Below, one piece after another: positions 18,188 to 28,178 of a stretch of DNA of 64,000 nucleotides; the first letter of the stretch is position 1; every line of letters starts with the position of its first letter. The DNA is taken from the NCBI RefSeq assembly GCF_014647455.2, contig NZ_BMPF01000001.1:248001-312000 (forward strand), in the 5' to 3' direction. Made by a program: the position numbers and the translations under genes. Below the pieces are notes generated by a model. That model was not told where the DNA came from and searched no databases. It saw only the letters and a list, made by a program, of their open reading frames with translations. The DNA comes from Halarchaeum grantii (GTDB lineage: Archaea > Halobacteriota > Halobacteria > Halobacteriales > Halobacteriaceae).

Positions 18188-19501
18188 ATGGGCGTAGTCA
18201 GCTACGTTCGGCGGCTCTTCTCGGTCGACCGGCGCGTTCTCGTGCTCGCGCTCGCACGAGCGATGGACTCGCTCGGCAACTCCTTCCTCATCGTCGTCCT
18301 CCCGCTGTTCATCGGCGACGTCATCGCGGGCGGCGCGACCAGCGGCGTCACCGTCGGCATCGGCGGCTTCGACGTCACGCTCGCGGAGAGCCTCGCGGTC
18401 GGCGTCGTCCTCTCGATGTTCGGCTTCCTGAACAGCTTCGGCCAGCCGTTCACCGGGCGCTGGTCGGACCGGACGCAGAAGCGTCGCGCGTTCGTCCTCT
18501 TCGGCCTCGGCGTCCTCGCCGTGACGAACGTCGCGTACGCCTTCGCGGGGACCTACCTCCAGCTGTTCGTCATTCGCGCGCTCCAAGGCTTCGGCGTCGC
18601 GTTCACCGTGCCCGCCACCATCGCGCTCGTGAACGAACTCGCCACCGACGACACCCGTGGGAACAACATGGGCGTCTTCAACACCTTCCGCCTGCTCGGC
18701 TTCGGCCTCGGCCCCATCTTCGCGGGCGGCCTCGTCCACAGCGGCCCCTACTTCGGCGGCGCCCTCACCGGCTACAACGCCGCGTTCACCATCGCCGCCG
18801 CCGGCGCGCTCCTCAGCTTCGTCCTCGTCACGCTGCTCGTCGAGGACCCCGAGACCGTCGAGGCCGACGCGGGCGACGACCTCTCGATCGCCGTCCTCGA
18901 CCACGAGCGCGAGGGGAAGTTCCTCGACCCCGTCTTCACGCTCGGCGTCGCCTCGCTGTTCATGGCCATCGGCATCGCGCTCCTCGCCGCCATCGAGTCG
19001 CAGGTGAACGCCCGCCTCGACCAGACCGCGTTCCTGTTCGGCATCGAGTTCGCGGCGTTCGTCCTCGCGCAGGTCCTGCTCCAAGCCCCGATCGGTGACG
19101 CGAGCGACACCTACGGGCGCAAGCCGTTCGTCCTCGGCGGCCTCCTGTTGCTCGCGCCGGCGACGCTCGCACAGGGCTTCGTCACCGAACCGTGGATGAT
19201 GATCGTCGCGCGCTTCGTGCAGGGGATCGCCGGCGCCGCCGTCTTCGCGCCCGCGATGGCGCTCGCCGGTGACTACGCGCGCGCCGGCCAGTCCGGCACC
19301 CAACTCTCCGTGCTCACGATGGCGTTCGGCCTCGGCGTCGCCATCGGCCCGCTCGTCTCCGGCGCGCTCGCCGCCATCTCCTACGCGACGCCGTTCGTCC
19401 TCGGCGGCGCCCTCGCCCTCCTCGGCGCGATACTCGTCCACACGCAGGTCGAGGACACCGTTCGCGACGACGACGCCCCCGAGGCCGTCGCGGGCGACTA
19501 G
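18188..19501 (+). CDS. Major facilitator superfamily transporter
   Basis: 437 residues, twelve predicted membrane helices. MFS motif A occurs after helix 2 ('GRWSDRTQKRRAFV') and again in the second half ('GDASDTYGRKPFV'). 'LVNELATDDTRGNNMGVFNT' fits the drug/sugar-efflux (DHA1-like) branch. The central cytoplasmic loop ('VEDPETVEADAGDDLSIAVL') is acidic. The substrate cannot be deduced. It is preceded by a leader with a palindrome that may be a regulator site, and its stop overlaps the convergent small membrane gene by four bases. Confidence 0.87.
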   Translation: MGVVSYVRRLFSVDRRVLVLALARAMDSLGNSFLIVVLPLFIGDVIAGGATSGVTVGIGGFDVTLAESLAVGVVLSMFGFLNSFGQPFTGRWSDRTQKRRAFVLFGLGVLAVTNVAYAFAGTYLQLFVIRALQGFGVAFTVPATIALVNELATDDTRGNNMGVFNTFRLLGFGLGPIFAGGLVHSGPYFGGALTGYNAAFTIAAAGALLSFVLVTLLVEDPETVEADAGDDLSIAVLDHEREGKFLDPVFTLGVASLFMAIGIALLAAIESQVNARLDQTAFLFGIEFAAFVLAQVLLQAPIGDASDTYGRKPFVLGGLLLLAPATLAQGFVTEPWMMIVARFVQGIAGAAVFAPAMALAGDYARAGQSGTQLSVLTMAFGLGVAIGPLVSGALAAISYATPFVLGGALALLGAILVHTQVEDTVRDDDAPEAVAGD

Positions 19502-19764
19502 CGGTAGAGGGAGACGTAGAGCGTCGCGAACCCGACGATGAACGGGAGCGTCGCACCGATCTCGAAGACGGGGCCGGTCGGGAGCTGGTCGGAGAGCACG
19601 GTCAGTCCGACGCCCATGCTGACGAACGCGAAGCCGATGAAGGCGTACTCGAGGCGCGGCGTCCCGTTGCGCCGATAGGCCTGAAAGCTGATGAGCGTCA
19701 GGCCGAGCGTGAGCGCGAAGAGCACGAGGCGGAGCGCGACGAGGACGATGCTCGCGAGCGTCAT
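19498..19764 (-). CDS. Small three-helix membrane protein (resembles DUF7521)
   Basis: 88 residues with three hydrophobic segments (about 5-26, 37-55 and 65-85) and a short basic loop 'QAYRRNGTPRLEY' after the first helix. It lies 91 bases downstream of, and on the same strand as, the HTH gene at 19856-20203, so the two form a regulator/membrane-protein pair like those at 20843-21539 and 24792-25479. Function unknown; a signal-sensing or anchoring partner for the regulator is inference. Confidence 0.7.
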   Translation of the reverse strand: MTLASIVLVALRLVLFALTLGLTLISFQAYRRNGTPRLEYAFIGFAFVSMGVGLTVLSDQLPTGPVFEIGATLPFIVGFATLYVSLYR

Positions 19765-19855: not shown

Positions 19856-20203
19856 TCACTCACCACCGAGTTCCGACCAGAGGTCGCTGAAGCGGTCCGC
19901 GAGGTCGTCCTCGCGGCGGACCTCGACGACGTACTCGTCGTCCTCGAGACGGACGGAGAGCTCCTCGAACGTCGCGGCGTAGCGCTTGTAGTGGTTACCG
20001 TCGGGCGCGACGGCGGTCCGTGCGGTGACCAGCTCGCAGGACTGCAGGTCGTCGAGGCGCCGATAGACGGTGGGGAGCGAGACGTCGAGCGCGTCCGCGA
20101 GCTCCTTCGCGGAGCGTGGCTCGTCGTTCACGGCGGCGAGCACCGCGCGGGCGCGCGGGTCGCCGAGCGCGTCGAGTAGGTCATCGGCCCCCACGAGTGA
20201 CAC
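19856..20203 (-). CDS. ArsR-like winged-helix transcriptional regulator
   Basis: 115 residues from the GTG at 20201-20203; a second GTG nine bases later is possible and no ATG fits. The HTH runs 'DDLLDALGDPRARAVLAAVN', 'RSAKELADALDVSLPTVYRR', then a wing 'VTARTAVAPDGNHYKRYAAT'. A charged C-terminal helix pair follows ('VVEVRREDDLADRFSDLWSE'). Typical of haloarchaeal one-domain regulators. Divergent from the PadR-like gene, sharing a 93-base control region; paired with the membrane gene downstream. Confidence 0.75.
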   Translation of the reverse strand: MSLVGADDLLDALGDPRARAVLAAVNDEPRSAKELADALDVSLPTVYRRLDDLQSCELVTARTAVAPDGNHYKRYAATFEELSVRLEDDEYVVEVRREDDLADRFSDLWSELGGE

Positions 20204-20296: not shown

Positions 20297-20800
20297 ATGA
20301 AGGAGCACTGGGGAGGGACGGTGGAACCGTCCGGGTCGGCGCCCGAGGAGATTACCGTCGAGAGCCTGCTGCGCGAACTCGACGCCGACGCCTCGAGCGA
20401 CGAGGCGACCGTGCGTCCCACCGAACTGCTCGAGGACGCGCTGGTGTCGCTGGACGCGGACGCCGAGGGCTTTCGCTTCGACGAGGACATCGTCAAGCAC
20501 AGCCTCGACGAACTCCTCCTCGTCCTCATCGCCGCGCGCGCCGACGGGACGCACGGCAAGCAGCTGATGGACGACCTCGACCAGCGCTTCGACGCGCGGC
20601 TCAGCCCCGGTACCGTCTACCCGCGCCTCCACGACATGGACGCCGAGGGCACGGTCGCCGTCCGCGAGATGGTGCGCACGAAGGAGTACACGATTTCGGA
20701 CGACGCCGAAGCCGAGGCGCGCGTGCGCGAGGCGATGCTCCAGCACCTCGCGATCGGCCGCTTCCTCGAGCGCGCGCTGGCGGACGGCGACCTCTTCTAG
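20297..20800 (+). CDS. PadR-family transcriptional regulator with N-terminal extension
   Basis: 167 residues. The PadR-type winged helix spans about 68-145: 'DELLLVLIAARADGTHGKQL', 'LSPGTVYPRLHDMDAEGTVA' and wing 'REMVRTKEYTISDDAEAE'. The first 65 residues are acidic and lack the usual PadR start. Members repress detoxification or export genes; the ABC exporter at 21.8-24.8 kb and the MFS gene are candidate targets by position only. The next HTH gene follows 42 bases downstream. Confidence 0.78.
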   Translation: MKEHWGGTVEPSGSAPEEITVESLLRELDADASSDEATVRPTELLEDALVSLDADAEGFRFDEDIVKHSLDELLLVLIAARADGTHGKQLMDDLDQRFDARLSPGTVYPRLHDMDAEGTVAVREMVRTKEYTISDDAEAEARVREAMLQHLAIGRFLERALADGDLF

Positions 20801-20842: not shown

Positions 20843-21136
20843 ATGCGACAGCTGCTCTGGTGGCTCATCGGCGGGTCGCGTGGCGGGAAGAACCGCCTAC
20901 GCATCGTCCGCGCCCTCCAGCGCCGACCGATGAACACGAACCAGCTGTCGAACGAACTCGAGTTGAACTACAAGACCGTCCAGCACCACCTCGAGGTGCT
21001 GGAGGAGAACGACGTCGTCACGACGCGCGGAGACAACTACGGCAAGATGTACTTCCTCACAGACGCACTGACCGAGAACCTCGACATCCTCGAGGAGATC
21101 GCCGAACAGGCCGACATCGACATCGATGACGCGTAA
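20843..21136 (+). CDS. ArsR-like HTH regulator, partner of membrane protein (cassette 1)
   Basis: 97 residues. N-terminal 'RQLLWWLIGGSRGGKNRLRI' is hydrophobic enough to touch the membrane; the winged HTH is 'RPMNTNQLSNELELNYKTVQ' then 'HHLEVLEENDVVTTRGDNYG'. It is clearly paralogous to the protein at 24792-25085, sharing RPxNTNQL, YxTxQHHL and GDxYGxxYF. It overlaps the following membrane gene by eleven bases, so regulator and membrane protein are made together. Confidence 0.8.
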   Translation: MRQLLWWLIGGSRGGKNRLRIVRALQRRPMNTNQLSNELELNYKTVQHHLEVLEENDVVTTRGDNYGKMYFLTDALTENLDILEEIAEQADIDIDDA

Positions 21137-21539
21137 CGTCACACCGCTGGCGAAGACGGCGCTCGTCGTCGCGCTCGCGGGGGTGTGCGGCGCGCTCGCG
21201 GGTCTCCTCGTCCCGAGCGTCCCGCTCCCACCGGAGCTGTCGAACTCGCTCGTGGAGACGCTCGTCCGCGTGAAGTTCGGCGTCGCGACGTTCAACCTCG
21301 CGGTACTCGTCGCGCTCGTCGCCGCGTACGTCGACGTCTACCGGGACCTCCCGAACAAGTACACGCTCAGCCTCCTCGTGACGAGTCTGGCGCTCCTGCT
21401 CTACGCGCTCTCCGCGAACCCGCTCGTCGCGCTCCTCTTCGGCTTCCCACCGCATCCGGCGCTCGGGCCGTTCGGCTTCCTCCCGGACGTCTTCGTGGCA
21501 GTCGCCATCGTCGTTCTCTTCTACCAGAGCCAGACGTAA
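21126..21539 (+). CDS. Four-helix membrane protein paired with HTH regulator (cassette 1)
   Basis: 137 residues, four hydrophobic segments (about 9-28, 48-68, 77-105 and 112-133). The second half 'LYALSANPLVALLFGFPP' and 'GFLPDVFVAVAIVVLFYQSQ' are matched by the paralogue at 25078-25479 ('LYAATSNPLLPLLFGFGP', 'FLPDLFACLAALTLYHQSAT'). Nothing catalytic is visible. Its overlap with the HTH gene and the duplication of the whole pair suggest a two-protein sensor, with the membrane part receiving a signal; that is inference. Confidence 0.75.
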   Translation: MTRNVTPLAKTALVVALAGVCGALAGLLVPSVPLPPELSNSLVETLVRVKFGVATFNLAVLVALVAAYVDVYRDLPNKYTLSLLVTSLALLLYALSANPLVALLFGFPPHPALGPFGFLPDVFVAVAIVVLFYQSQT

Positions 21540-21609
21540 GTCCGGGGATGCGTCGCGCGCTCGGCGTCGCGGCGCCGCGCGCGTCCCCGAACGCCGCGAC
21601 TTCTCCGCC

Positions 21610-21635
21610 GAATTTGTGCCTCCGTTGTGCCTAAC
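21610..21635 (+). promoter_or_regulatory. Candidate operator upstream of the exporter operon
   Basis: 'GAATTTGTGCCTC' (21610-21622) is repeated exactly at 25483-25495, just after the second cassette. Here 'TTGTGCCT' also occurs twice in direct orientation (21614 and 21625). The gap to the next gene start (21792) also contains 'ctttaggagg' near 21661, a possible TATA or SD element. Confidence 0.35.
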
Positions 21636-21791
21636 TCCGGCGTAATCTCGGAAATTTGACTTTAGGAGGCGTGTCGTTCGGGCGAGTGTGCAGACGCCAG
21701 CCATCACCCCGCCGCTCGCGACACACGACCCGAGCGGCACCGACGCATCGCATCGGACACCGACCGTCGCCCTCGCGGAGGTGACGCGGGC

Positions 21792-22997
21792 GTGAGACGG
21801 ACGTGGCGGAGTGCCGCCCTCGCCGTGCTCGTCGTCGCGAGCGCGCTCACCGGGACGGTCACGGCCGTGAGCGCCGACCAACCGGACGTACAGCTCTCCT
21901 CGGTCACCGTCTCGCCGGACGACCCCACGACCGGCGAATCGGTCACTGTCGAGACGACGATTTCGAACCTCGCGAGCACGAACGGGACCGTCGACGTGAC
22001 GGCCGTCTACCTGCGGAAGTCCGGACGCTCGACGGAGTACGGACGCACCACTGACGTCGGCTCCATCGCGCCCGGTAGCACCCTCACCGTGCCGCTGACG
22101 GCGTCCTTCGACAGCGCGGGCGAGCAGCGCCTCACCGTCCACGTCACCGTCCGCGACGCCGACGGTGAGCACACGAGCTACGAGTACCCGGTGTCGGTCG
22201 ACGTCGAGGACCCCGTCGTGAAGGCCGGCCTCTCGACGACCACGAACGACTCCGGGCAGACGACGGCGACGCTGACGAACTACGGAAACGTGAACTTCAC
22301 CGACGTCACCATCGAGACGCTCGCGGACGGTGACGTCCTCGACAGCCAGTACACCTTCGACGTCGACCCCGCCGAGAGCCGGAGCGTCGCCTTCGACACC
22401 GAGGACTACGACGCCGACACCGTCACGTTCCGCGCGAGCTACACCGCGAACGGCGAGACGCACGAGACCACGCGCACCGTCGCCCTCGAACACGAGGTCA
22501 CCGGGCGGATCCGGCTGACCGGCGTCGAGGCGACGCAGAGCGGGTCGACCGTCACGCTCGACGGCGACGCCGCGAACATCGGCGGGACGGACGTCGACTC
22601 CCTCCTCGTCAGCGTGCAGGACTCGGGGAGCGTCGCGCCGTCCGGCGGCGCCGGCGAGTACTTCGTCGGCTCCGTGGACGCGAGCGAGTTCGCGACCTTC
22701 GAGCTCGACGCCTCGGTTAGCGGGGACGTCACGTCGATTCCCGTCGAACTCACCTACCTCGTCGACGGCGAGCGCGTGACGACGACACAAAGCATCAGCG
22801 TCGCCTCGACCGGCGGCGCGTCGACGAACCAGTCCGCCGGTGCGTCGGGTGCGCCGAGCGGGATGAGCGGCCCGCCGGCGTCGAGCGGAAGCGGCGGCAT
22901 CGCCGCCACGCTCACCAGCGGCCCCGTCCTCGGCGGGCTGGTCGCCGTGCTCGTCGCGCTCGGCGGCGGCCTCTACTACCTCTGGAACCGCGAATGA
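21792..22997 (+). CDS. Secreted CARDB/COG1361-type protein of an ABC export operon
   Basis: 401 residues from a GTG start. Sec signal peptide (about 1-28, 'LAVLVVASALTGTVTAVSAD'), then repeated Ig-like beta domains with 'VTVSPDDPTTGESVTVETTI' and 'ATLTNYGNVNFTDVTIETL', a Ser/Gly-rich stalk (345-370) and a C-terminal membrane helix 'PVLGGLVAVLVALGGGLYYL'. So it is an outward-facing, membrane-anchored adhesion-like protein. In haloarchaea such proteins precede MacB-like ATPase and permease genes, as here: the next gene begins inside its last codons. Role probably as the extracytoplasmic part of the exporter. Confidence 0.82.
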   Translation: MRRTWRSAALAVLVVASALTGTVTAVSADQPDVQLSSVTVSPDDPTTGESVTVETTISNLASTNGTVDVTAVYLRKSGRSTEYGRTTDVGSIAPGSTLTVPLTASFDSAGEQRLTVHVTVRDADGEHTSYEYPVSVDVEDPVVKAGLSTTTNDSGQTTATLTNYGNVNFTDVTIETLADGDVLDSQYTFDVDPAESRSVAFDTEDYDADTVTFRASYTANGETHETTRTVALEHEVTGRIRLTGVEATQSGSTVTLDGDAANIGGTDVDSLLVSVQDSGSVAPSGGAGEYFVGSVDASEFATFELDASVSGDVTSIPVELTYLVDGERVTTTQSISVASTGGASTNQSAGASGAPSGMSGPPASSGSGGIAATLTSGPVLGGLVAVLVALGGGLYYLWNRE

Positions 22998-23656
22998 GCG
23001 TCATCGAACTCGACTCCGTGGTCAAGCGCTACGAGAGCGGCCCGGAGACCGTCGTCGCGCTGAAGGGCGTGGACTTCCACGCCGAGCGCGGCGAGATGGT
23101 CGTCGTCACCGGCCCGTCCGGGAGCGGGAAGAGCACGATGCTCAACATGATCGGCCTGCTCGACGCGCCGAGCGAGGGGACCGTCCACCTCGACGGCCGC
23201 GACGTCACGGACGCGAGCGAGGACGAACGCACCGAGGAGCGCCGCTCGGAGCTCGGGTTCGTCTTCCAGGACTTCCACCTCCTCCCGATGCTGAACGCCG
23301 TCGAGAACGTCGAACTCCCCTCGATGTGGGACACGGACGTCGACCGACACGAGCGCGCGATTGCCCTCCTGAAACGCGTCGGCCTCGGCGAGCGCCTCGA
23401 TCACACCCCGGACGAGCTCTCCGGCGGCCAACAGCAGCGCGTCGCCATCGCGCGCTCGCTCATCAACGAACCGGACGTCCTCCTCGCGGACGAACCCACC
23501 GGCAACCTCGATCAGGCGACCGGCCGCACCATCCTCGACGAGATGGCGCGACTGAAGGAGGAGGAGAACATCGCCATCGTCGCGATCACACACGACGAGC
23601 AGATGGCGGCGTACGCCGACCGCGTCGTCCGCATCGTCGACGGGGTGGTACAGTGA
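22994..23656 (+). CDS. ABC transporter ATP-binding protein (MacB/LolD type)
   Basis: 220 residues. Walker A 'GPSGSGKS' (40-47), Q-loop 'FVFQDFHLL', signature '[14 protein letters not shown]' (142 onward), Walker B 'VLLADEPTG' and switch histidine in 'AITHD'. The short length and '[10 protein letters not shown]' place it with MacB/LolD/FtsE ATPases that drive mechanotransmission rather than import. ATGA overlap with the CARDB gene upstream and GTGA overlap with the permease downstream. Confidence 0.94.
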
Positions 23657-24795
23657 GCCTCCTCTGGCGCTTCCCGAGCGTCCTGATGGCGTGGCGGAAC
23701 CTCGGACGGAACCGGATGCGGACCGTGCTCGCCGCGCTCGGCATCATCATCGGCGTCATGGCGATCGCCTCGCTCGGCATGGCGACCGTCGCGATCCAAC
23801 AGCAGGCCTCCTCACAGCTCGGCAGCCTGACGAATCAGGTGTCGGTCTCCGCCGGCGAAGACCTCGACACGGACGGCCTCACCGACGACCAGATCTCGGA
23901 GATCGAGAGCATCGCGGCGGACGCGACCGTCGTCCCGCAGAAGACGAACAACACCGAGCTCACCTCGCGGAGCGGGGCGACGGCGCGGGTGAGCGTCACG
24001 GGGGTGACGAACGCCGCCGCGCTCTACGACGTGTCTGCGGGCGAGTCGCCGAGTCGACTGACCACGGGCGCGCTCGTCACCAACAGCACCGCCCAACAGC
24101 TCGGCCTCGAACTCGGCGATCCCGTCGAGTACGACGGCCACCTCTATCGGGTTCGGGGGTTCATCGAGTCCGAGACCGGCTTCGGGCCGGGCGGCGGCCG
24201 AGGGGAACTCGTTCTCCCCGTCTCCGCGCTCTCCAACCAGCAGTACTACGACTCGGTGACGGTCATCGCCGAGGACGGTGACGCCGCGAGTGCGCTCTCC
24301 GACGACTTGGACGCGTACTTCAACACGGAGGACGAGACCACCCTCCAGATACAGAGCTACTCGGGCGTCCAGCAGAACATCGGGGGCTTCATGGACACGC
24401 TCCAGACCGCGCTCCTCGGCATCGGCGGCATCTCGCTCGTCGTCGCGAGCGTCGCCATCCTGAACGTCATGCTGATGAGCGTCATCGAGCGCCGGGGCGA
24501 GATCGGCGTCCTGCGCGCCGTCGGCATCCGGCGCGGCGAGGTGCTGCGCATGATCCTCACCGAGTCCGCCTTCCTCGGCGTGCTCGGCGGACTCGTCGGC
24601 GCGCTCGGGAGCCTCGGCGTCGGGCTGGTGCTCTTCAGCGTGCTCGCGGGCGACGCGACGGCTGTCCTCCAGTGGGCGAGCTCACAGTACCTCCTCTACG
24701 GCCTCGCGTTCGCGGTCGTCGCGAGCGTCCTCAGCGGGTTCTACCCCGCGTGGAAGGCCGCGAACGAGTCGCCGATCGACGCCCTCCGAGGATGA
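23653..24795 (+). CDS. ABC transporter permease (MacB/FtsX family)
   Basis: 380 residues from the GTG at 23653, which overlaps the ATPase stop. First helix 'RTVLAALGIIIGVMAIASLG' follows the family 'AWRNLGRNRMR' entry; a periplasmic-type MacB-PCD domain (about 50-240) is inserted; three helices end the protein ('LVVASVAILNVMLMSVIERR', 'GVLGGLVGALGSLGVGLVLF', 'LLYGLAFAVVASVLSGFYPA'). 'RRGEIGVLRAVG' is the coupling motif. With its ATPase it likely exports or handles a lipid, peptide or surface molecule. Confidence 0.92.
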   Translation: MSLLWRFPSVLMAWRNLGRNRMRTVLAALGIIIGVMAIASLGMATVAIQQQASSQLGSLTNQVSVSAGEDLDTDGLTDDQISEIESIAADATVVPQKTNNTELTSRSGATARVSVTGVTNAAALYDVSAGESPSRLTTGALVTNSTAQQLGLELGDPVEYDGHLYRVRGFIESETGFGPGGGRGELVLPVSALSNQQYYDSVTVIAEDGDAASALSDDLDAYFNTEDETTLQIQSYSGVQQNIGGFMDTLQTALLGIGGISLVVASVAILNVMLMSVIERRGEIGVLRAVGIRRGEVLRMILTESAFLGVLGGLVGALGSLGVGLVLFSVLAGDATAVLQWASSQYLLYGLAFAVVASVLSGFYPAWKAANESPIDALRG

Positions 24796-25085
24796 GCGAC
24801 CGCGCCGCCCCGGACGAGCACACCCGCCGGCTCCTCGAGTGGGTCGCGGAGAACGAGAACCGCCGCCGCGTCGTCCGCGCGCTCTGCGAGCGCCCTCGGA
24901 ACACGAACCAACTCGCCGACGCGCTCGACCTCCACTACCGGACGGCCCAACACCACCTGCGGCGTCTGTGCGAGCGCGGCGCGCTCACGTCCGTCGGTGA
25001 CGGCTACGGCGAGACGTACTTTCCGGCGGACCGCGTCGCGTCGTATGCGTACCGCCTCGGCGCCACGGAGGACGCGGATGAGTGA
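24792..25085 (+). CDS. ArsR-like HTH regulator (cassette 2)
   Basis: 97 residues, starting inside the permease stop (ATGA). The winged HTH 'RPRNTNQLADALDLHYRTAQ' / 'HHLRRLCERGALTSVGDGYG' is a paralogue of the regulator at 20843. The N-terminus differs: no Trp-rich stretch. Its direct coupling to the exporter genes makes it part of the same operon, while cassette 1 lies just upstream of that operon. Confidence 0.8.
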   Translation: MSDRAAPDEHTRRLLEWVAENENRRRVVRALCERPRNTNQLADALDLHYRTAQHHLRRLCERGALTSVGDGYGETYFPADRVASYAYRLGATEDADE

Positions 25086-25479
25086 GCGCGCACGGAGAAC
25101 GCTCACCCTCTGTGCCGTCACCGTCGCCGTCTCGGCGGCCGTCGCCTCCGCCGCGCCCACCCTGCTCGTCCCCCGCTATCCGCCGGGCGTCTTCGGCGTC
25201 CTCGTGGGGCTGAAACTGTTCTTCTCCACGGCGACGCTGACGTCGCTCTGCGCGCTCCTCGTCACGCACGCGCGACTCTACCGCGACGTCCCGACGCCGT
25301 TCGCGCGCGGCCTCCTGCTGTTCACGCTCGCGTTCCTGCTCTACGCGGCGACGTCGAACCCCCTGCTCCCCCTCCTGTTCGGCTTCGGCCCGCCCGATCC
25401 GATCGGCGCGTTCACGTTCCTCCCCGACCTGTTCGCGTGTCTCGCCGCGCTCACCCTCTACCACCAGAGCGCGACGTAG
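25078..25479 (+). CDS. Four-helix membrane protein (cassette 2)
   Basis: 133 residues with four hydrophobic segments, overlapping its HTH partner by eight bases. Paralogue of 21126-21539; the final 45 residues are the most alike, including 'LLFGFGPPDPIGAFTFLPDL' and a Gln-Ser-x-Thr ending in both. N-terminal 'SERARRTLTLCAVTVAVSAA' fits an inside-facing basic start. No known function. Confidence 0.75.
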   Translation: MSERARRTLTLCAVTVAVSAAVASAAPTLLVPRYPPGVFGVLVGLKLFFSTATLTSLCALLVTHARLYRDVPTPFARGLLLFTLAFLLYAATSNPLLPLLFGFGPPDPIGAFTFLPDLFACLAALTLYHQSAT

Positions 25480-25482
25480 GGG

Positions 25483-25495
25483 GAATTTGTGCCTC
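25483..25495 (+). promoter_or_regulatory. Second copy of GAATTTGTGCCTC motif
   Basis: Exact 13-base match to 21610-21622. It begins three bases after the stop of the second cassette and precedes the 25553 gene; it may be an operator or a transcript-end element. Confidence 0.35.
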
Positions 25496-25552
25496 AGTCG
25501 GGGCGAAACTCGGCGGCTCTACTTGTCCCCGTCGTCGCAACTGTCGCGCGTG

Positions 25553-25795
25553 ATGGACTGCGACGACCGACACGACCGGAACCCGAAAGCCCTCCGACTC
25601 GAGCGCTACCTCCGTGCGCGCGTCCGCGACGGTGCGTTCTACTGCAAGAGCAAGGACATCGCCGCCGACGTCGCGCTCACGCCGAGCGAGATCGGCCAGT
25701 TCCTCCCGCGATTCGACGGCGAGCGCGGCGTCGTCGTCGAGCGATGGGCGTACTCGGGCGGGACGCGCTGGCACGTCCGCCCCGCCGAGGAGTGA
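25553..25795 (+). CDS. Small basic-helical protein (resembles DUF7123)
   Basis: 80 residues from the ATG at 25553. 'ALRLERYLRARVRDGAFYCK' then 'SKDIAADVALTPSEIGQFLP' looks like a compact winged-helix: the second stretch reads as an HTH, and 'VVVERWAYSGGTRWHVRPAE' as the wing. From memory this resembles the haloarchaeal DUF7123 family. It probably binds DNA, but no target is evident. Confidence 0.65.
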   Translation: MDCDDRHDRNPKALRLERYLRARVRDGAFYCKSKDIAADVALTPSEIGQFLPRFDGERGVVVERWAYSGGTRWHVRPAEE

Positions 25796-25843: not shown

Positions 25844-27118
25844 ATGACCGGACGACGCGCACGCGGCATCGACCGGCGGGCGTTCGTGAAGTCCGCGCTC
25901 GCGATCGGCGGTGCGAGCGCGCTCTCGGCGTGCCTCGACCGGACGGACGACACCGACGTCCCGCAGGGGAGCGCGGAGTCGCTCCCGGAGCGCCAGCACG
26001 CGTGGGGCGCGTTCGTCGAGCGCGACGAGCACGGGAACGCCGTCCCCGTCCCGCACCGCCTCCTCCTCCTCCTCGACTACGACGGCGAGGGCACCCCCAC
26101 CGAGGACGAGCGCGAAACCGTCGAGCGCGCGCTCGCGACGCTCGAGGACGCGTACGCGTGGAGCCACGACGGCCTCCTCTCGACGATGGCGTACTCGCCG
26201 TCCTACTTCGAGCGCTTCGAGTCGTCGCTCCCCGAGCGCGTCGACCTGCCCGCGCCCGAGGCGCTCGCGTCCTTCGAGAACCCCGCCCTCGACGCGGCCG
26301 ACGCCGCCCTCCACCTCGCCAGCGACCACGGCCACGTCCTGCTCGCCGTCGAGCAGGCGCTCACAGGCGAACGAGACGCCCTCAACGGCGTCAGCGTCGA
26401 CGCCTCCTTCGATGGCGTCTTCTCGGTCGCGGAGCGCCGCACCGGGTTCACGGGCGACGGTCTCCCCGCCGAGAACCAGGACGTGCGCGGCGTCCCCGAC
26501 TCCGAGCCCGTCCCCGAGGACGCCCCGCTCTACATGGGCTTCAAGTCCACGTACGAGAAGACGCAGGCGAGCGAGGACCGCGTCACCATCGCGGAGGGCG
26601 CGTTCGCGGGCGGCACCACCCAGCACGTCTCGCACATGCTCCTCAATCTCCAGCAGTGGTACGAGCAGGACGACCGCGAGCAGCGCGTCGGCAAGATGTT
26701 CTGCCCCTATCACGCCGAGAACGACGTCGTGGAGGGCGCCGGGGACAATCTCGGGTCGGACGCGAAGATGGAGAAGGCCAAACCCGCAGAGCGGGCCGCC
26801 GACGAGGACGGCGTCGTCGGGCACAGTCAGAAGATGGTCTCGCTGCGCGAGGACGGCCGCCCCATCATCCTCCGGCGCGACTTCGACTCGACGGACGGCG
26901 GGCACGCCGGCCTCCACTTCGTCAGCTACCAGCGCGAGATCGCCGACTTCCTCGACACCCGCGACGCCATGACCGGCGCCGACCTCGCCGCCGAGACGCC
27001 GGTCGGCCAGCGCAACAACAACGGCATCCTCCAGTACATGAACGTCACGAGCCGCGGGAACTACCTCGTCCCGCCGCGCTCGAAGCGCGCCCTCCCCACG
27101 CCCGAGGGCGATGCCTAG
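25844..27118 (+). CDS. Tat-exported DyP-peroxidase-like protein
   Basis: 424 residues with a twin-arginine lipoprotein signal ('DRRAFVKSALAIGGASALSAC'). The body follows the dye-decolourising peroxidase/EfeB layout: 'LLLLLDYDGEGTPTEDERET', 'GAFAGGTTQHVSHMLLNLQQ', 'GHSQKMVSLREDGRPIILRR' with candidate proximal haem ligand His327, and 'GLHFVSYQREIADFLDTRDA'. The distal GxxDG catalytic motif of true DyPs is not recognisable, so peroxidase activity is doubtful. It overlaps the P19-like gene by eight bases, pointing to iron (or copper) handling at the cell surface, as EfeB does in EfeUOB. Confidence 0.7.
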   Translation: MTGRRARGIDRRAFVKSALAIGGASALSACLDRTDDTDVPQGSAESLPERQHAWGAFVERDEHGNAVPVPHRLLLLLDYDGEGTPTEDERETVERALATLEDAYAWSHDGLLSTMAYSPSYFERFESSLPERVDLPAPEALASFENPALDAADAALHLASDHGHVLLAVEQALTGERDALNGVSVDASFDGVFSVAERRTGFTGDGLPAENQDVRGVPDSEPVPEDAPLYMGFKSTYEKTQASEDRVTIAEGAFAGGTTQHVSHMLLNLQQWYEQDDREQRVGKMFCPYHAENDVVEGAGDNLGSDAKMEKAKPAERAADEDGVVGHSQKMVSLREDGRPIILRRDFDSTDGGHAGLHFVSYQREIADFLDTRDAMTGADLAAETPVGQRNNNGILQYMNVTSRGNYLVPPRSKRALPTPEGDA

Positions 27119-28178
27119 CCGCCGCGCCTTCCTCGCCGGCCTCGGCGCGGGCGGCCTCGGTGCCCTCGCGGGCTGTTCGGCGCTGAATCTCACGCGCGAG
27201 GAGACGCAGGACTCGCAGTCCGGCGACCCCCCGCTCCCGGACCGCCCGAGCGCCGTCTACTACCCCTCGCACGTCGACGGCATGCTGATGTCGGGGACGC
27301 AGACGCGCGGCGGGCTCGGGTGCGCGCTCACCTACACGCGCCCGCATCGCTTCTGGCTCGTCTCCGGTCGCGAGACCACGCGCGTCCCCGCGCGCGACGC
27401 CGCCGCCATCCACGTCATGCCCGTCGTCTGGCACGTCGAGACGGGCACGGTCCTCACCGACCGCACCCCCACGCTCCGCTTCCACGACGGCGACGCGCTC
27501 GTCACCGCCGACGCACCGTGGCCGATGCTCTCCCAGCGCATGGGCTTTCACTTCGGGGACAACGTCGTCCTCCCCGGCGACGGCGGCACCTACGACGTCA
27601 GCGTGCGCGTCGGCGCGCCCGCCGTCCGTCGCACCGGCGCGCTCGCCGGCGGCCCCGACGCCGTCACGTTCGACTTCTCGCTCGCCTACTCGCAGGCCGA
27701 ACTCGACGCCGTCTCCCGACGATACCGACGCGACGCCGGCGAGCGCGGCGCCGTCGACCCGATGGGGATGGAGATGCTCCCCGCCGGCGGCGTCCCCGCT
27801 CCCGCCGCCCTCCCGGGGCGCGTCCTCGGCACCGCGACGACCGGCGACGCCGCGGTCGTCGCCACCGTCCTCGACGGCGCCACGGCCTACGGCGGCGACG
27901 GCTCGCAGCGCTACCTCGCCGTCTCCATCAGGACGCCCTACAACCGCTACCCGCTCCCGATGACCGGCCTCCGAGCCGAAATCGCCGGCGAGACGCACGA
28001 CCTCACCGAGACGCTCGACCCGGAACTCGGCCACCACTACGGCGTCGCCCTCGACGAAGCGCCCGACGCCGTCGACGTCACCGTCACCACGCCCCCGCAG
28101 GTCTCGCGCCACGAAGGCTACGAGACCGCGTTCCTTGACATGCCCGCCATCACCATCGACGCGACGGACGGCGCCTGA
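27111..28178 (+). CDS. Tat lipoprotein with P19/Tpd-like metal-binding domain
   Basis: 355 residues. Signal 'PSRRAFLAGLGAGGLGALAGC' ends in a lipobox Cys. Residues about 45-175 resemble the P19 (FetP/Tpd) iron/copper-binding fold: 'GCALTYTRPHRFWLVSG', 'VMPVVWHVETGTVL', Met-rich 'PMLSQRMGFHFGDNVVLPGD' and 'GGTYDVSVRVGAP'. The conserved His and Met residues are candidate metal ligands. A second beta domain follows a linker with 'DPMGMEMLPAGGVPAP'. P19 proteins usually work beside an FTR1-type permease, absent here. Coupled to the DyP-like gene. Confidence 0.7.
   Translation: MPSRRAFLAGLGAGGLGALAGCSALNLTREETQDSQSGDPPLPDRPSAVYYPSHVDGMLMSGTQTRGGLGCALTYTRPHRFWLVSGRETTRVPARDAAAIHVMPVVWHVETGTVLTDRTPTLRFHDGDALVTADAPWPMLSQRMGFHFGDNVVLPGDGGTYDVSVRVGAPAVRRTGALAGGPDAVTFDFSLAYSQAELDAVSRRYRRDAGERGAVDPMGMEMLPAGGVPAPAALPGRVLGTATTGDAAVVATVLDGATAYGGDGSQRYLAVSIRTPYNRYPLPMTGLRAEIAGETHDLTETLDPELGHHYGVALDEAPDAVDVTVTTPPQVSRHEGYETAFLDMPAITIDATDGA

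Follow-up and report, generated by a model that had tools for sequence, protein, structure and literature searches.

Among described regulators, the closest in plan to the genes considered here is the SdpR/SdpI pair of Bacillus subtilis, in which the membrane receptor and immunity protein SdpI sequesters the ArsR-type autorepressor SdpR at the membrane (PMC1626106). We analyzed a 64,000-nucleotide stretch (the window) of the 3.02-Mb genome of the haloarchaeon Halarchaeum grantii (contig NZ_BMPF01000001.1, positions 248,001 to 312,000). In the window, two couples of a winged helix-turn-helix regulator gene (H) and a gene for a four-transmembrane (4-TM) protein (M), H1-M1 at 20843-21539 and H2-M2 at 24792-25479, bracket an ATP-binding cassette (ABC) exporter. 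As in SdpR/SdpI, the arrangement is a two-gene operon in which a polytopic membrane protein comes after a small ArsR-fold regulator, it lies beside export or surface functions, and a membrane-sequestration logic appears plausible by analogy. Unlike SdpR/SdpI, H falls far below the SdpR model (NF033789, 28.3 bits versus 100), and M has no Pfam match worth naming, SdpI's model included, in any of 15 M proteins. The couple is further set apart by a candidate operator of 11-bp repeats before the B recognition element (BRE) and TATA box, by a spread across the Archaea, and by envelope and export outputs. Our analysis suggests that H-M is probably a membrane-coupled one-component regulator of archaea, in which H binds this site and M controls H.

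The ArsR/SmtB metalloregulators (CzrA, SmtB, CadC) share the winged-helix fold of H. Indeed, H1 (20843..21136, + strand; 97 aa) and H2 (24792..25085, +) score 45.9 and 31.0 bits against the HTH_5 profile (cut-off 22), and a model of H1 (predicted local distance difference test [pLDDT] score of 92) has SmtB/CzrA as its best structural matches, with Z of ~11. Both proteins, however, fall below the cut-off of the HTH_metalloreg model (NF033788, 40.1 and 29.2 bits versus 55). H1 has no ArsR-type metal site and no cysteine, and the lack of cysteine argues against metal sensing. H also differs from metalloregulators in having a membrane partner and the N terminus MRxLLWWLxGGxRGGxNR, which is conserved across Archaea. 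M1 (21126..21539, +) is predicted to have helices at residues 7-28, 41-74, 78-97, and 115-136 (model pLDDT 88). A Foldseek search with M gave no match below E=0.9, which does not in itself prove a novel fold. The first-pass annotation took the two couples to be paralogous, and this holds: H1 and H2 are 48% identical, M1 and M2 (25078..25479, +) share 42-44% identity, and apart from M2 (E=2.4e-19) the genome has no other close M relative. We considered and rejected the possibility that the pairs arose by a recent local duplication, since H1 is ~80% identical to the H proteins of Halopiger and Haladaptatus and thus nearer to these than to H2; the couples are therefore two old subfamilies side by side.

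The reading given above draws on a candidate operator. The regions 3' of M1 and M2 share GAATTTGTGCCTC at 21610 and 25483, and the motif was seeded from these two sites. It consists of GAATTTGKGYCTM and a second half-site 11 bp (one turn) further, just upstream of BRE/TATA; exact GAATTTGTGCCT is present twice in the source genome. Candidate operator 1 (21610..21631, +; GAATTTGTGCCTC-CG-TTGTGCC) stands in front of the exporter operon, followed at 21645..21665 (+) by its presumed BRE/TATA-like promoter element (ATCTCGGAAATTTGACTTTAG), placed by promoter alignment and sequence inspection. The region 21540-21791, which had been proposed for binding of the H proteins, thus holds the best candidate site. 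Candidate operator 2 (25483..25504, +; GAATTTGTGCCTCAGTCGGGGC) begins 4 bases past the M2 stop codon and lies in front of a gene for a small DUF7123 protein (25553..25795, +; PF23438, 39.9 bits, cut-off 27). Both operators are conserved in H. rubridurum, H. nitratireducens, and H. acidiphilum, and the site is weaker before the second copy of the exporter that the source genome carries on contig C9. Elsewhere, in several families, GAATTTGKGYCTM with the second half-site is found at H-M loci, before adjacent LTXXQ, lipoprotein-hydrolase, CARDB, FAS1, DUF7282, or other ABC exporter genes or before H. A site upstream of the CARDB gene is present in 7 of 8 exporters with a couple versus 1 of 59 without (Fisher p=7e-8), and the lone couple-less exporter bearing a site has a one-mismatch match.

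Across 391 haloarchaeal genomes, GAATTTGKGYCTMA has 45 exact sites versus 7 for the reversed control, and 28 of the 45 are within 2.5 kb of a strong M match. The association between site and M at the genome level is significant (Fisher p=1e-20) and stays so after collapsing a mobile cassette described below (1.9e-11). Some off-locus sites precede secreted proteins or additional H-M couples; about seven others were set aside as chance-like matches. In a shorter subfamily of the couple, whose H begins MEAVLWYVLTGTRGG, the surface genes are preceded by a related site, GAATTTGGGTGAGAGTTCGGAAA (p=3e-4 versus controls). As a separate observation, in three related genomes a small membrane-protein gene is preceded, at a distance of 65 bases, by an operator-like site that is conserved and has no H-M nearby.

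Outside the haloarchaea, H-M loci of Thermoplasmatota, Methanomicrobiales, Methanobacteriaceae, and the anaerobic methanotrophic archaea ANME-1 and ANME-2 carry (A)ATTTGGGTNT in tandem, with two to four copies spaced 11 bp apart and immediately followed by a BRE/TATA-like sequence. The double half-site TTGGGTNNRAWTYGGG gives 31 sites in 24 non-haloarchaeal genomes and none for the reversed control; 23 of the 31 fall within the fetched H-M loci, which make up 0.5% of the DNA, although the pattern was refined partly on the same loci in which it was counted and these are related by descent. A different pattern, TTGGGTNNRAWTYNGGG, was in the wrong register and yielded no useful matches. The ANME-1 locus mirrors the Halarchaeum plan, with H-M, operator, exporter genes, and a further operator.

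The two genes of the couple are found together almost everywhere. H is directly upstream of M in 68 of 75 examined haloarchaeal M matches. Of 80 H loci recovered with H as query from genomes across Archaea, 76 encode a 3-4-TM protein immediately after H. The M profile matches 278 of 391 haloarchaeal genomes, about 50 of them strongly and the remainder through the shorter subfamily. Beyond the haloarchaea, H-M is present in Thermoplasmatota, Nanohaloarchaea, Thorarchaeota, Methanobacteriaceae, Methanomassiliicoccales, ANME-1, ANME-2, Methanomicrobiales, and Hydrothermarchaeota, many of these contigs being metagenome-assembled genomes (MAGs). The couple is much wider than the exporter trio. One contig labelled Proteobacteria also carries an archaeal-type couple and is probably mis-binned. 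Long open frames taken as possible H-M fusions proved to be wrong-frame read-through, and two fusion candidates (L296, L299) were artefacts.

The genes beside the couple are largely of the envelope. In Haloferax-type loci and in one genus (g5) of Halarchaeum's own family, the same-strand upstream neighbour encodes secreted LTDEQ-repeat proteins, which are marginal matches to the LTXXQ/Spy-CpxP family (24.6 bits versus a cut-off of 24.3). A secreted LTXXQ-like protein under a control element beside a membrane-coupled regulator would, by analogy, resemble the Cpx/Spy system (CpxP, Spy); H-M has no histidine kinase or response regulator, and with so marginal a match the likeness stays an analogy. 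A gene for a lipoprotein alpha/beta-hydrolase forms with H and M a low-GC cassette, near-identical among 13 or more genomes from three haloarchaeal families, including plasmid pHLAC01 of Halorubrum lacusprofundi, and this cassette is a mobile regulator-surface-enzyme unit. Its copies at loci L077-L092 and L235 lie on plasmids and beside insertion sequence, TnpB, or metal-ATPase genes. DUF7282/PGF-CTERM surface proteins lie downstream of the shorter subfamily, and fasciclin (FAS1) and other surface genes also recur beside H-M. A CARDB exporter trio adjoins the couple in Halarchaeum, Haloferax marisrubri, Halohasta, Halorubrum amylolyticum, and genome G341; a Halodesulfurarchaeum MAG has the end of a permease gene ahead of the couple, and another ABC exporter adjoins H-M in Halorubrum sp. 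PV6. Further afield, the gene order is ABC-2 exporter, CARDB, LTXXQ, H, M in a Saliniplasma locus; H, M, MacB-type permease, ATPase in a Methanobacteriaceae locus; and H, M, ATPase, CARDB, MacB-type permease in ANME-1. Because LolD-like ATPases number just 0-6 per genome, this proximity of exporters to H-M is unlikely to arise by chance.

The first-pass annotation saw in the locus a split membrane-sensing regulator of a surface or export function, to be abandoned if H and M were mostly apart or near unrelated genes in other genomes. The regulator part of this proposal agrees well with the H-M linkage and with the candidate operator before envelope genes. The tie to the exporter is looser: M is within 5 kb in only 8 of 67 permease loci, and the exporter is therefore not a fixed neighbour. 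It is one of several envelope outputs of H-M, and the association of couple, candidate operator, and envelope genes across Archaea is the stronger finding. The layout itself also varies within the genus. H. rubridurum and H. nitratireducens retain the order PadR-H1-M1-CARDB-ATPase-permease-M2-DUF7123, in which M2 overlaps the permease gene directly and H2 is absent. H. acidiphilum has H1-M1 on one contig and the exporter-H2-M2 block on another, with different neighbours. The loss of H2, these split contigs, and the decay of the H2/M2 copy behind the C9 exporter indicate that the pairs are separable modules and that the inner pair is dispensable.

The sequences establish that H and M are coupled, that the motif recurs, that it is placed ahead of envelope genes, and that it depends on a nearby couple. 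Together with the fold of the proteins, these patterns lead us to infer the following circuit. H, as an ArsR-fold dimer-type regulator, would bind AATTTGGGT-like half-sites that recur at 11-bp intervals immediately 5' of the BRE/TATA of the adjacent operon and often of its own operon too; it is the likeliest binder because it is the only DNA-binding protein common to the operator-bearing loci. M, with its four transmembrane helices, would be translated with H, sense membrane state or exported products, and control H; the simplest means would be to retain H at the membrane. M is the likeliest controller because the two genes are translationally coupled and hardly ever unlinked, and the logic follows that of SdpI. 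A dimer on tandem half-sites beside the core promoter might act on recruitment of transcription factor B and TATA-binding protein, and a site immediately upstream of BRE would suit an activator no less than a repressor. In Halarchaeum, operator 1 is predicted to control the CARDB-ABC exporter and operator 2 the DUF7123 operon. H1-M1 could act in trans, and H2-M2, within the operon, would be a dispensable copy that provides feedback.

The motif might instead belong to another regulator, such as PadR, DUF7123, or an unlinked factor, with H-M merely a co-regulated member of its regulon. DUF7123 homologues do adjoin H-M in three further loci, of Haloferax type, and H-M is missing from the vicinity of a few convincing sites, but neither PadR nor DUF7123 is a general neighbour. 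H-M is the sole element common to operator-bearing loci in three archaeal phyla, and couple-less exporters are without the site, so we regard this explanation as unlikely. We give similarly low credence to the idea that M is not a sensor but an effector or the component being protected, a small immunity or repair protein in the membrane, while H controls its own operon and neighbours through a cytoplasmic ligand. Such a role would fit the absence from M of a recognizable sensor domain or known fold, the operators that precede H itself in several Haloferax loci, and the ArsR fold of H, whose family often binds small ligands. The missing cysteines and metal site of H1 speak against it, as do the retention of M2 without H2 in the sister species and the conservation of M far past any single output gene. 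Improbable, finally, is hitchhiking of small autoregulated regulator and membrane genes inserted beside a common exporter and functionally unlinked to it, which the couple-less state of 59 of 67 exporter loci and the separate contig of H1-M1 in H. acidiphilum would allow, but which sits poorly with an operator that precedes the exporter specifically where a couple is close by (the permease tree shows six changes each for couple and operator) and with the MacB-type or ABC-2 exporters that adjoin H-M in Thermoplasmatota, ANME-1, and Methanobacteriaceae too.

Several results weigh against H-M as a membrane-coupled regulator acting through this operator. A phylogeny-aware test found only 3 supported independent pairs, changing in the same direction in 2.6 and in the opposite direction never (p=0.25), and the large binomial p-values disregard relatedness. 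Applied alone to other archaea, the haloarchaeal position weight matrix is only modestly significant (combined p=2e-5). The Thorarchaeota, Nanohaloarchaea, and Hydrothermarchaeota loci searched yielded no operator, and the Halohasta exporter no good one. Natural H-M fusions were sought and no true one was found. The persistence of M2 after loss of H2 in two sister species shows that the pairing is not absolute, and the C9 exporter has kept only a decayed couple.

H-M and its 11-bp-repeat operator could form an old archaeal transmembrane signalling module, extending at least from Methanobacteriota and Thermoplasmatota to Halobacteriota, that couples membrane or surface state to transcription of exporters, LTXXQ/Spy-like proteins, and other surface proteins; we put forward this wider claim tentatively. 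It would then be the archaeal equivalent of sigma/anti-sigma and envelope-stress systems while using neither kinases nor sigma factors. How archaea sense their envelope and relay its state to promoters is largely an open question, and H-M with its operator looks like an undescribed route by which they adjust the cell envelope. We found no description of the couple or of DUF7521, a family discussed below, in the open-licence full-text literature, and PMC4158269 is silent on the couple. Regulator, membrane partner, candidate DNA site, and target list recur in several archaeal phyla and are testable in tractable haloarchaea, joining two unannotated protein families and many "hypothetical" surface proteins into a single testable circuit.

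The exporter trio and the remaining genes complete the locus. All seven open reading frames of 20843-25479 were recovered as first called, including overlaps of 11 bases between H1 and M1 and 8 bases between H2 and M2, and 4-base overlaps join the CARDB, ATPase, permease, and H2 genes in succession. The trio comprises a secreted CARDB protein (21792..22997, +; PF07705, 27.4 bits, cut-off 22.7) whose start codon is uncertain, a MacB/LolD-type ABC ATPase (22994..23656, +; PF00005, 127.6 bits), and a MacB/FtsX-type permease with a GTG start (23653..24795, +; PF12704 and PF02687 above the Pfam cut-offs). The three genes occur in this order in 60 of 60 permease-orthologue loci, which marks them as a common haloarchaeal trio. 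Like MacB and LolCDE, the exporter has an ATPase and an FtsX/MacB permease; unlike them, it has a secreted CARDB protein where MacA would be and no outer-membrane partner. The ATPase is nearest the LolD/MacB/YbbA models and below every equivalog cut-off, and we do not assign it to MacAB-TolC or LolCDE. Past the DUF7123 gene behind operator 2, positions 25844-28178 encode exported proteins of DUF7405 (Dyp-peroxidase-like) and DUF7350 (iron-transport-like), which are possibly part of the same regulated unit as DUF7123.

On the other side, a PadR-family regulator gene (20297..20800, +; PF03551, 32.4 bits) lies directly upstream of H1 and stays with H1-M1 in the genus. Next to it, again as first annotated, is a third couple on the reverse strand, consisting of H3 (19856..20194, -), a winged-helix protein recognized by profile search, and M3 (19498..19764, -), a DUF7521 membrane protein (PF24365, 41.7 bits, cut-off 27). 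Haloarchaeal DUF7521 couples resemble H-M in having a winged-helix gene directly upstream of that for a 3-TM protein, often with a 4-base overlap, but M has no detectable homology to DUF7521. Membership of M in that family is not supported, as M1 and M2 give no PF24365 match and the hhalign probability between M and DUF7521 is 0.8%. DUF7521 is present in 115 of 116 haloarchaeal genomes at 1-12 copies each, making its couple commoner than H-M, and an H3-like gene is directly upstream in 30 of the 30 best DUF7521 loci. The second exporter copy, on contig C9, has a permease 85% and an ATPase 89% identical to those of the window. Its CARDB gene (within C9:44000-60000) is a mosaic of a low-GC 5' part and a near-identical high-GC 3' part, a pattern that suggests gene conversion.

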